Shown here in pieces: positions 10,494-45,953 of a DNA stretch of 64,000 nucleotides (position 1 is the stretch's first letter; each line of letters starts with the position of its first letter). The position numbers and the translations under genes are program-made. The notes under the pieces were generated by a model that did no database searches, was not told the DNA's origin, and was given only the letters and a program-made list of their open reading frames with translations. This DNA comes from Hymenobacter sp. DG25B (GTDB lineage: Bacteria > Bacteroidota > Bacteroidia > Cytophagales > Hymenobacteraceae), in NCBI RefSeq assembly GCF_000801315.1, contig NZ_CP010054.1, positions 2,914,001 through 2,978,000 of the forward strand, written 5' to 3'.

Positions 10494-11603
10494 CTACTCA
10501 GGTTTGGCGTAGAAAGCCTCTAACGAGCGGGTGTACAGGCAGTAGTTAATAGGATTGTTCACTTGAAAAATGGTGGGCTCTTTGGCGCCGGCGGGCACCA
10601 GCATGAGGCTGCCCTTGCCGTTTATCTTGGTGCGCTCTAGCCCCTGCCCTTCGCGGTTGTCAAACTTCACATCCAGATAGTACAGGTAGGGCGCAATCCA
10701 GTTTACGTAGCCCCTTTTGCTGACACCCGACAGGCTCCTGATTTCCAGGTCTTTATAATTACGGGCAATGGCCTGTTGAAACTCCACCGCATTCAGCGGC
10801 TTACCGCGCAGCACGGGCATCACATCCCACTGCCCATCCAGTAGCACCCATTTTTGCTGGTCGGGCAGCCAGGTTTCCAGCAGCACGTGGCCGGCCCCAC
10901 TTTCGGTGGTTTCTACGTCCTTGGTTTTCAGGGCCAGCACCCGCGACTTCAGCCCGTAGGCATTCAGGCAGGAGGTGGCTACAATGCCGTACTCCACGCA
11001 GCGGAACTGCTTGCCCAGCTTCACTTCTTCCAGAATGGTAAGCGCATCGTTTTTAGTGGGCTGGTTGCTGCCGTTGTGGTCCCATTGCTGATGCACCCAG
11101 TGCAGCAGGCGCAGCGCCCGCTCGGTGTCGTTTTGGGCGCCCTGCACCACGGCATCCAGGTTGTACTGTTGGCGCAGCTGGGTGAGGAAGGTATTATTCT
11201 GGCCGGCTTCATACCGAATTGTGAGTGGCGCGGCCGGGCGCGCTTTGTCAAAGCGCAGCGGCTCCACGGCAAAGCCGGTGGCGCGCAGCTCCGTCAGTGC
11301 GTAGCGGCCATCATCGAGCAGAACGTAAAAGCGTTGGGTAGTGCCGGGCTTCAGCGTATAGCGAATAGAGTCCTGGTCGGTGCGGAATACCACGGATTCT
11401 TTGGCTGCGTGCAGGGTCAGCGGTAGCACGTCAGGGCTGGTTTCGGGGGCTATGCGCCATTCGCCTTTCACCCAATCCTGGCCCAGGCGGTAGTCGGCCT
11501 GCGGCTGGTGCGCTTTGATGACGGGCAGCCCCTGATAGGTGGCAGATTGCGCAACGGCAGTGCCACTAGCTAGCAGCAGGCCATACAGCAAAAGAGGTTT
11601 CAT
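10494..11603 (-). CDS. Secreted transglutaminase-like (cysteine protease fold) protein
   Basis: 369 residues with a cleavable signal peptide (MKPLLLYGLLLASGTAVAQ). The catalytic triad of the transglutaminase-core superfamily is readable: C202 in FRCVEYG, H239 in GAGHVLLE and D256 in LLDGQWD. The first 130 residues are a beta-rich N-terminal domain. In bacteria this fold is more often a peptidase or scaffold than a true cross-linking enzyme. I chose the ATG at 11603 because it opens directly on the signal peptide; the frame to 11711 adds an unlikely extension. Its periplasmic location is inferred. Confidence 0.82.
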   Translation of the reverse strand: MKPLLLYGLLLASGTAVAQSATYQGLPVIKAHQPQADYRLGQDWVKGEWRIAPETSPDVLPLTLHAAKESVVFRTDQDSIRYTLKPGTTQRFYVLLDDGRYALTELRATGFAVEPLRFDKARPAAPLTIRYEAGQNNTFLTQLRQQYNLDAVVQGAQNDTERALRLLHWVHQQWDHNGSNQPTKNDALTILEEVKLGKQFRCVEYGIVATSCLNAYGLKSRVLALKTKDVETTESGAGHVLLETWLPDQQKWVLLDGQWDVMPVLRGKPLNAVEFQQAIARNYKDLEIRSLSGVSKRGYVNWIAPYLYYLDVKFDNREGQGLERTKINGKGSLMLVPAGAKEPTIFQVNNPINYCLYTRSLEAFYAKPE

Positions 11604-41808: not shown

Positions 41809-43140
41809 CTACGGCCGGCGCCCGTTCACGGCGGTGCGCTGGTAGCCAATGAGCAAATCGGCGCGGGAGCCCGGCGGGCGGTAATACACCAGCAGGTCGT
41901 ACTCATTTTCGGTTTCCTGGTGGCTGCCTTCAAAGTAGGCTTCGTTGGGAACGGCGGCTCCGCCCACGGCAAAGGAGTAGTTGTAATAGCCCTGCTTCAG
42001 CAGCGCGTGGCCCGTGTATTCCTGCTGGGCAGCATCGTACGTCAGTTTGAACTCCTCTTTTAGCTGCCAGTCAGACAAAGCGCCCAGCACGTACACCGGG
42101 CCAGGAGCGGCTTGTGGGGCGCGTAGCCGGAAAGTAACGTCCAGGTAATCGGCGTTAGTGGCGCCGTTGCCGTAGTCGCGGCTCTCGAACACGCGCTGGC
42201 CATTCACGTCCTCGTACTGGGTGTAGGCCTGCTCGCGGCGGGTAGCTTCGGGCTGCAGCAGGGCCGCGCGCGGGGTGGCCTCGGCATTTAGCTTGGCTAC
42301 CCCTACGCCCAAGGCGCGGTAGCTGCGCAAATCCACAAACCGGTACTCTGACAGACCCAGAAAGGCATTTTCAAAGTTAAAATATTGGTATTCCAGCCGC
42401 CGTTCCGCATCGCGCACAAAGGTGGGGCGCAGGTTATAATGGGCGTTGTCCCACCGGAAATTCTGCCGCAATACCACTTTCACTTCCTGCGCCGGGTTTA
42501 CCAGGTTCACGCCCCCGTAGCTAATGCCAAAGTTGAGCTGCTGCATGGTGTAGCGCTCCTGTCCCGCGGCCAGCGGGCCCGGCTGCAGGAAGGTGCGCAC
42601 CTGCTCTTCGTACACCAGCACCCGGCGCGAAAGCAGCGGCGTGCCCGCCCCGTTTTGCACCACCAGCAGGTAGTTACCGCTGATTTTCACGCGCGGCACC
42701 CGCAACCGGTAGTGGAAATACGGCACCCGGGTATTCACGGAGGTGCGGTAATCCGTCAGCAGAAACTCGTTGATGTCACTCAGAAACTGAATATCGGTGA
42801 GAATGGAGGGCGTCCAGTCCACGTTGCAATGCACCAGCTTAGCGGTGAGGCGCTGGCTTTGCTGGCCCAATACGTCAAACTCCAGCACCACAGGCTGCGC
42901 CTGGGCCAGCGGCACTACGGGCGGCTCAAACACCTCGGTGGGTTGCCCGGAGCCTACGTAGCATTGCACCGACTGCACATCTTTGGAGTAGATATAGTCC
43001 TGGTAGCGCAGTGCCACCTTCGGCGTTTGCACCGGGCTGCTCTGGCCCGTTCGGGCAGCGTTAGGGTCGGTTATTGGCGTACCCAGGGGCACGCAGGCGG
43101 TGGCGAGGAAAAGCAGAGCGGGTGCGAAACGGTGATGCAT
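41809..43140 (-). CDS. DUF5103 type IX secretion system plug protein
   Basis: 443 residues, a predicted outer-membrane lipoprotein (signal ending LATAC). The DUF5103 pattern is clear: QDYIYSKDVQSVQCYVG at the start, the WTPSILTDIQFLSDINEFLLTDY-type segment in the middle (about 110-135), YFHYRLRVP, LQQLNFGIS-type strands, and a C-terminal Ig-like domain with YVLGALSDWQLKEEFKL. In Flavobacterium the homologous plug closes the SprA translocon from the periplasmic side. This supports type IX secretion in the organism. The start is the ATG at 43140, 22 bases from the left REPIN. Confidence 0.88.
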   Translation of the reverse strand: MHHRFAPALLFLATACVPLGTPITDPNAARTGQSSPVQTPKVALRYQDYIYSKDVQSVQCYVGSGQPTEVFEPPVVPLAQAQPVVLEFDVLGQQSQRLTAKLVHCNVDWTPSILTDIQFLSDINEFLLTDYRTSVNTRVPYFHYRLRVPRVKISGNYLLVVQNGAGTPLLSRRVLVYEEQVRTFLQPGPLAAGQERYTMQQLNFGISYGGVNLVNPAQEVKVVLRQNFRWDNAHYNLRPTFVRDAERRLEYQYFNFENAFLGLSEYRFVDLRSYRALGVGVAKLNAEATPRAALLQPEATRREQAYTQYEDVNGQRVFESRDYGNGATNADYLDVTFRLRAPQAAPGPVYVLGALSDWQLKEEFKLTYDAAQQEYTGHALLKQGYYNYSFAVGGAAVPNEAYFEGSHQETENEYDLLVYYRPPGSRADLLIGYQRTAVNGRRP

Positions 43141-43161: not shown

Positions 43162-43279
43162 AGTAGCGCGAAGCTCCGGCTTCGCGTACGAGCGAAGCGA
43201 GTAGCAAGCTGGCGCTGACGAATAGCTTACGCGTAGAAACTCGCTCTGCTCGTGCGCAAAGCCGGAGCTTCGCGCTACT
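43162..43279. repeat. Left REPIN (paired REP elements)
   Basis: Two inverted REPs: 43162-43192 on the plus strand and 43249-43279 on the minus strand, matching at 29 of 31 bases. Each REP reads AGTAG followed by an 8-bp hairpin CGCGAAGC-TCCG-GCTTCGCG. GTAG at the foot of the hairpin is the hallmark tetranucleotide of REPs recognised by RAYT proteins. The left REP is identical over 31 bases to the left REP of the element on the other side of the RAYT gene. Confidence 0.9.
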
Positions 43280-43300
43280 TTTAACTTAGTAAGTCGGCTT

Positions 43301-43906
43301 ATGGCTAGTTCAGACCTGATTCAATACCGGCGCAACTTGCCCCATATTTTACCACCGGGCACTAACCTGTTTATAACTTTTCGTTTGGCTGATTCCCTGC
43401 CACGTGTTGTGCTTGACCAACTGCGGGATGAATGGAATCTTCTCTCTCAGGAAGATGCTGATGAAAGTGAGGCCTATGCTCGGCAGAAGCGCTACTTCGG
43501 CAGGTTTGACCATCTCCTTGATCAGGCCGACCACGGGCCAATCTGGCTTTCAGAGCCTACAGTGGCAGAAGCAGTGCGCGAGGCCCTTCACTATTATGAT
43601 GACCGGGCGTATCGGCTGATCTGTTACTGCGTTATGCCCAATCATGTCCATCTGGTCATTACGCTACCCGATGATGCGCAGCCCCTGGCCCGCACGCTAC
43701 AATCCATCAAAAGCTATACGGCTGCCAAAGCTAATTTACTGCTACAACGCACTGGCCAGTTCTGGCAGCGGGAAAGCTACGACCACCTGGTGCGTGATGC
43801 TGCCGAAATGGAACGGGTAATAAGCTACGTGCTGGAAAACCCCGTAAAAGCAGGCTTAGTAGATGACTGGCAAATCTGGCCCCATTCGTACTGGAAGGAA
43901 GAGTAG
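43301..43906 (+). CDS. REP-associated tyrosine transposase (RAYT, TnpA_REP type)
   Basis: A Y1/HUH nuclease that acts on single-stranded REP DNA. The 201 residues show FITFRLADSLP (25-35), the HUH motif PNHVHLV (H115, H117), and the catalytic tyrosine Y160 in WQRESYDHLVRD, followed by helices ending in VLENPVKAGLV. The ATG at 43301 lies 22 bases after the left REPIN. The stop codon TAG (43904-43906) falls inside AGTAGCGC, a partial copy of the REP start, 9 bases before the right REPIN. All motifs are intact, so the protein may be active. Confidence 0.94.
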   Translation: MASSDLIQYRRNLPHILPPGTNLFITFRLADSLPRVVLDQLRDEWNLLSQEDADESEAYARQKRYFGRFDHLLDQADHGPIWLSEPTVAEAVREALHYYDDRAYRLICYCVMPNHVHLVITLPDDAQPLARTLQSIKSYTAAKANLLLQRTGQFWQRESYDHLVRDAAEMERVISYVLENPVKAGLVDDWQIWPHSYWKEE

Positions 43907-43915
43907 CGCAAAAAT

Positions 43916-44022
43916 AGTAGCGCGAAGCTCCGGCTTCGCGTACGAGCAACGCGAGTTCCAGGCGTAGGCTGACGCGTGGTTACTCGCTGCACTCGTACGC
44001 GAAGCCGGAGCTTCGCGCTACT
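43916..44022. repeat. Right REPIN (paired REP elements)
   Basis: REPs at 43916-43946 (plus) and 43992-44022 (minus) are perfect inverted copies over 31 bases, with the same GTAG plus 8-bp hairpin. The internal spacers differ between the left and right REPINs (56 and 45 bases), although both contain GCGAG and CTCGCT words. It ends 23 bases from the stop of the convergent ABC-F gene. Confidence 0.92.

Positions 44023-44045: not shown

Positions 44046-45953
<1,908 letters not shown>

Follow-up and report, generated by a model that had tools for sequence, protein, structure and literature searches.

The closest described systems to the one analyzed here are the REPtrons formed by the TnpAREP/RAYT (REP-associated tyrosine transposase) proteins of Escherichia coli, Stenotrophomonas and Marinomonas (PMC8266576; structure 4er8). 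In the accessible part of that report, they combine a HUH motif and a single tyrosine with a W-Q...D/E-H..R region and a GTAG foot on the REP, and they have REP pairs located at the gene and one gene with many REPs. In Pseudomonas fluorescens SBW25, according to the available sections of the work describing them (Bertels and Rainey, PMC3116915), REPs form hundreds of inverted doublets (REPINs) with a variable interior, a one-hairpin fold and an extragenic location, and REPIN excision leaving around 6 bp of one end has been reported. The accessible text on TnpAREP subclasses (PMC6006769) gives subclass 2.4 the motif set NH[IFV]H, WQ and YIxNNP, describes it as abundant in Bacteroidetes and Cyanobacteria, and proposes that double-foot REPs arise by central deletion. 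No paper joining Hymenobacter with REP-associated tyrosine transposases or repetitive extragenic palindromic repeats was found in our searches, and no wider absence is claimed.

The system reported here comes from a Hymenobacter-type genome (G000; 4.36 Mb in 4 contigs), unlike the hosts of the REPtrons mentioned above. The window, i.e. the whole stretch of 64,000 nucleotides analyzed, spans positions 2914001-2978000 of contig C1, and contains a RAYT gene (43301-43906, + strand) with an inverted REP pair on each side, one at 43163-43278 and the other at 43917-44021, as had been proposed in a previous sequence-only reading of this DNA. Each REP consists of GTAG followed by CGCGAAGC-TCCG-GCTTCGCG, in which 8 perfectly paired bp form the stem and TCCG the loop, unlike in the E. 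coli REP, which has a bulge. The left REPIN (116 nt, unstranded, with a partly palindromic interior) is formed by REPs at 43163-43186 (+) and 43255-43278 (-), the latter being the only one of the four at the locus with an altered stem base (GCTTTGCG for GCTTCGCG). The right REPIN (105 nt, also unstranded) is formed by REPs at 43917-43940 (+) and 43998-44021 (-), whose first 30 nt, starting at GTAG, are identical. When the A immediately before GTAG is included, the two arms agree at all 31 bases in the right pair and at all but 2 of 31 in the left pair, as that reading had stated. When folded as single-stranded DNA, the whole flanking REPINs gave z values of -7.9 to -13.0. Allowing up to 3 mismatches, the REP word was found 5 times in the window (0.15 expected from shuffles), corresponding to the four REPs at the RAYT gene and one 3-mismatch site at 11278. 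Weak Rfam matches, mostly to eukaryotic microRNA families, were all below the gathering score and were discarded as hairpin artefacts. The GC content of the RAYT gene is 52%, that of the window being 58%.

The window RAYT scored 92.9 bits with the curated NCBIfam model NF047646 (REP_Tyr_transpos), above its cut-off of 80, contains a PF01797 (Y1_Tnp) domain, and matched the E. coli RAYT structure 4er8 in a phmmer search (E 3.8e-8). Its AlphaFold2 model (pLDDT 84.4) gave 794 PDB matches, the top one being again 4er8, the complex of a RAYT with a REP hairpin (E 1.2e-8, TM 0.54/0.65); unlike that protein, of 165 aa, the window RAYT has 201 aa and an additional N-terminal part. The family is well known, since 6,620 database proteins match the window RAYT, several among the 120 matches listed being named RAYT or REP-associated tyrosine transposase, and the nearest named relatives are mostly from Hymenobacter (the five best of 14 loci, and most of the named ones among the matches listed), which probably makes the host a member of this genus.

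The intact HUH protein with H115 and H117 anticipated from the sequence was confirmed as H115-V-H117 (residues 115-117) within the 201-aa open reading frame. The proposal of Y160 as the catalytic tyrosine had to be abandoned: in the alignment to 4er8, this residue falls within WQxxxYDHxxR, the segment carrying GTAG-contact residues, and the Y-x-x-x-N-P motif of the protein is YVLENP, with Y176 as its tyrosine. Judging from these alignments, the catalytic residue is most likely Y176. H115, H117 and Y176 are invariant, and Y160 is also conserved, in the 30 RAYT loci compared, the window's own counted in. In the 4er8 alignment, W155, Q156, D161, H162 and R165 correspond to the GTAG-region residues W94, Q95, E/D100, H101 and R104 of E. 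coli; Q156 is replaced by H in 5 of the 30 loci. The accessible part of PMC6006769 names the GTAG-contact residues of the E. coli protein and calls the role of W94 unclear. As in the TnpAREP subclasses 2.4 and 2.7 described in that text, the protein has NHVH, WQ and Y-x-x-x-NP motifs and the REPs are canonical long GTAG elements; unlike in those subclasses, YVLENP is exact to neither motif (inexact against the YIxNNP of subclass 2.4, in a comparison made by motif) and no REP was found inside the window gene.

The sequence-only reading had predicted that copies of the REP would be scattered through the genome and had proposed checking whether most are intergenic inverted pairs; both points were borne out. 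The exact REP word appeared 53 times (26 forward, 27 reverse; none for the reversed control), and up to 3 mismatches gave 101 matches versus 3 controls, so that the word is not confined to the RAYT locus. The matches were grouped into 46 places, lying in 45 stretches, which comprise all those listed with no more than 2 mismatches and, in addition, one 3-mismatch pair; a further 12 matches with 3 mismatches, one of them unlisted, looked like chance and were excluded. Of the 46 places, 42 are inverted pairs in which GTAG is outermost, the remaining four being two double-foot elements of 28 nt (L084 and L095), like those in the available text of PMC6006769, and two with a more degenerate partner (L070 and L072). 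According to a crude codon-usage caller, which missed the RAYT gene itself and covered the element only partly at L066 and L070, 43 of 49 script rows (the 46 places, with three loci counted twice) were mostly outside open reading frames, in loci that were 83% coding. C1 (3.87 Mb) carries every one of the 53 exact words and C2-C4 (0.49 Mb) carry none; by position, the first half of C1 holds 31 of the 46 places.

The resemblance to the REPINs of SBW25, as the accessible part of PMC3116915 presents them, includes inverted doublets, a variable interior, a one-hairpin fold and extragenic location, with around 46 places in G000 instead of hundreds and TCCG-type elements mostly of 103-118 nt. The lengths of the 26 TCCG/GCCG-type REPINs in G000 were 103-106 or 114-118 nt, with one exception (110). 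These clusters, seen in G000 (L061-L105) and in the related genome G076 (L106-L126), are separated by about one helical turn, with almost no intermediates. Among the sites common to both genomes, 10 show a length difference above 1 nt, which amounts to 10-13 nt at nine of them and to 3 nt at the other. TCCA-loop types are also present in G000, many with another interior.

A survey of 120 genomes of the genus showed a RAYT-like gene (E 1e-5) in 90 and the exact REP word in 22. The word reached 53 copies in G000 and 36 in G076, whose RAYTs are 97% identical, and no more than 6 in each of the other 118 genomes. The word was not equally common where the gene is missing, since among the 30 genomes with no RAYT match (20 named from the search and 10 obtained by subtraction from 120), 26 had no exact word and four had one each. 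We then compared the best RAYT locus from each of 30 genomes; no REP was found at four, leaving 26. The match between RAYT phylogeny and REP sequence proposed as a check was observed: REP difference correlated with RAYT distance (n=26, Mantel r 0.76, permutation p 0.0001), and the 9 REP types required 8 changes on the RAYT tree, which is the minimum, with REP word and class assigned by hand at each locus and one word picked in case of ties (L044, L046, L052, L058). Part of this match reflects shared descent, because REPs at the flanks of a RAYT are linked to the gene.

A rule by which each REP word would require its own RAYT in the genome failed for a second word, TTTGT (GTAGCGCGAACTTTGTAG), present in 72 of the 120 genomes with a total of 1,010 copies. 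It is also abundant in some genomes where only a distant RAYT, without such REPs, was found, for instance G065 with 59 TTTGT words, which indicates that REPINs can be maintained where a close RAYT is missing.

We consider it very probable that the locus is a REPtron, in which a single, vertically inherited RAYT has its own REPIN population and the gene stays put as a domesticated transposase. It is well formed and of a known kind, its parts being already known and the novelty being its member in a Hymenobacter-type genome, and we infer that the window RAYT recognises and spreads this REP family. The REP would fold in single-stranded DNA, probably while the strand is single during replication. 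By analogy with the systems described in the accessible part of PMC8266576, the RAYT would bind the folded single-stranded REP via the GTAG foot and the loop, cleave beside the foot through Y176 and then join. REPINs would thereby be moved or copied between mostly intergenic sites, the gene itself remaining where it is.

With both flanks as guides, each of the 46 places of G000 was found in G076, with a combined flank identity of 79.8-96.6% at 43 sites. Paired REPINs exist in both genomes at 30 places, five more are common in other forms (L070, L072, L084, L092, L095), and 11 have no REPIN in G076. The two genomes therefore have no fewer than 35 of the 46 sites in common, which implies that movement is slow. 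The content at these sites is another matter: in contrast to the available text on SBW25, a relative shows other content at the same sites. The interior was kept (identity 0.84 or more) in 11 of 24 comparable TCCG-type pairs, although in four of these (L071, L075, L082, L089) copies elsewhere match as well or better. At the other 13, the REPIN is a different one or has been resized or flipped: L100 seems to have been inverted where it stands, L061 has the same interior with an 11-nt difference, for ten several copies elsewhere are as near as the ortholog or nearer (ranks 3-28 of 59), and one (L101 left) is ambiguous. The idea that TCCA-type REPINs became frozen through loss of their own RAYT was rejected, as turnover of TCCA-type and other older REPINs was not different from that of the TCCG type (4/6 vs 11/24 retained, Fisher p 0.65). 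In G076, a different palindromic element, with ends GTCATGTCGAGCG and CTCGACATGAC, was seen at L141, L149 and L152, where the REPIN is absent.

No simple uninterrupted empty site was found at the 11 G000 sites without REPIN in G076, at two in the reverse situation, or at six loci mapped in a third genome, G102. The nearest to empty sites were G000 at L123 and G102 at L088 (GTAGCACTAC), and feet were retained in both. Spare REP feet also recur outside REPIN ends, at a distance of 3-8 nt. We defined a foot rung as GCGCTAC, matched at 6 of 7 positions or better, at offsets 1-15 outside a REPIN end, the expectation being derived from the rate at offsets 41-190. There were 13 rungs at 86 ends in G000 versus 3.8 expected, 8 of them at offset 6, and 12 at 40 ends in G076 versus 2.4 expected; sites common to both genomes enter both counts. 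Rungs were one-sided at 11 of 12 loci in G000 and 6 of 9 in G076. The TTTGT family, which is independent, agrees with this pattern: 25 exact feet (14 genomes) were located 3-8 nt outside the word versus 2 (2 genomes) at 23-28 nt, among 1,010 words. In the window, the spare foot GTAGCGC (43903-43909, +), 7 nt outside the right REPIN, contains the TAG at which the RAYT reading frame stops, and the same rung exists in G076 (L109). In another relative, G013, the RAYT (L036) apparently also ends in a TAG within the REP foot directly 3' of the gene. By comparison with the excision reported in SBW25, the rungs could be excision scars, or else preferred targets. Judged from the aligned sites, content differences and spare feet suggest that REPINs have repeatedly been exchanged, or excised and inserted again, at fixed sites.

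G102 provides a natural knock-out, as a close relative without RAYT. It is the closest to the window by plug-domain protein (93%) among the 60 other genomes searched, with 95% DNA identity in the ABC-F gene; it was not among the 90 genomes with a RAYT match, and nothing in its DNA matched the RAYT part. It has no copy of the exact TCCG word and one TCCA word. The six G000 loci mapped in G102 (7 of the 46 places) showed a decayed REPIN at L087, only joined feet (GTAGCACTAC) at L088, neither REPIN nor joined feet at L089, L099 and L100, and 1.8 kb of other sequence at the RAYT locus. G102 may have lost its RAYT or may never have carried one; judging by the decayed REPIN, activity may have been lost.

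The main competing view is that ordinary recombination, i.e. gene conversion or strand switching at a hairpin, changes the content of shared sites, the RAYT having made the family long ago and being now uninvolved. Gene conversion of REPs is, by its title, the subject of a 1988 paper by Higgins. Identical arms of 18 nt and longer are common to many copies, both loops differ together (TCCG vs GCCG) at four sites (L064, L082, L087, L096) and only one arm differs at six, and the apparent inversion of L100 is in the same line. At L095, G000 has a 28-nt double foot and G076 a full 105-nt REPIN, as if the centre had been deleted between short direct repeats, which fits the origin proposed for double-foot REPs in the available text of PMC6006769. 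However, word abundance tracks RAYT presence, and spare feet outside REPINs are no simple consequence of conversion. We regard this explanation as a serious possibility, albeit one with the odds somewhat against it. A variant of the REPtron reading, which we put forward only tentatively and find rather unlikely, would make the RAYT mainly an exchanger at fixed addresses, with REPIN feet (GTAG/CTAC) as preferred targets, so that sites would persist while the REPIN in them would be replaced, flipped or resized, and a spare foot may remain outside after each round. If true, the foot rungs would be explained, as would site lists that stay stable although their content changes, and REPIN populations would be address-bound rather than free-roaming.

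The gene itself appears to have remained in place. On the left it is preceded by a gene for a type 9 secretion plug-domain protein (41809-43140, - strand; PF17116) and on the right it is followed by a gene (44046-45953, - strand) with two ABC_tran domains, which we take to encode an ABC-F-type ATPase. Both lie outside the cassette and mark a conserved locus: the RAYTs of G000, G076, G105 and G013 (4 of the 30 loci) are all between these same genes, with REP loops TCCG, TCCG, TCCC and TCCA, respectively; in G013, TCCA is found upstream of the RAYT and a TCCC-type REP after the gene. Having the same neighbours in four species with different loops indicates that the RAYT was inherited in place while its REP changed, and TCCA may, from this comparison, be an earlier loop of the same RAYT lineage. 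At 4 of the 29 plug loci of relatives (L200, L211, L216 and L223, in G092, G022, G052 and G019), an ABC-F match was nearby and no RAYT was present in the retrieved stretch; the locus therefore also exists without the cassette.

These data bear on the initial description of the cassette as a mobile or domesticated system, of which the second term seems to fit better than the first: as a single-copy gene whose locus is the same in four species, the RAYT has the look of a domesticated element and not of a mobile one. It is very improbable that RAYT and REPINs together form an autonomous mobile element of the IS200/IS605 type. An HUH-Y1 protein between palindromic ends, a fold and catalytic motifs shared with IS200/IS605 transposases (2f4f, 2xm3 and others) and a weak match to the IS200 model speak for it, but that match (NF033573, 19.3 bits) is far below the cut-off of 55, only one such gene was found in G000, with REPs of one family on both flanks, and its plug/ABC-F locus is the same in the four genomes. 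Least credible of all is that the host built the repeats as terminators or regulatory hairpins and that a transposase adjoins them by chance, for although the majority lie in gaps between genes (crude caller) and one terminator-like pattern coincides with a REP (3 found in the region vs 1.2 in shuffles), the genome's only RAYT lies between two REPINs, REP type shifts with RAYT clade across the genus, and the pairs are symmetrical with GTAG outermost.

Site-fixed turnover and foot rungs constitute a concrete, testable pattern, and are the parts that merit specialist attention. The genus is a good test bed, with a RAYT-like gene in most genomes surveyed, TCCG, TCCC and TCCA loops in one lineage at one locus, and a RAYT-less relative. 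It may also hold a second REP-like system, as RAYT-like genes of the 35-36% identity class at L168 and L169 (G075 and G012) adjoin other palindromes (CTGTGGCACGGACTTCAGTCCGTAGCCCG). Finally, REPINs of another RAYT clade (GTAGCGCGCAGCTCCGC) at L034 and L039 (G041 and G053) have an interior resembling the ACGAGC...GCGAGT of the window family, a likeness that may mean exchange between REPIN families.
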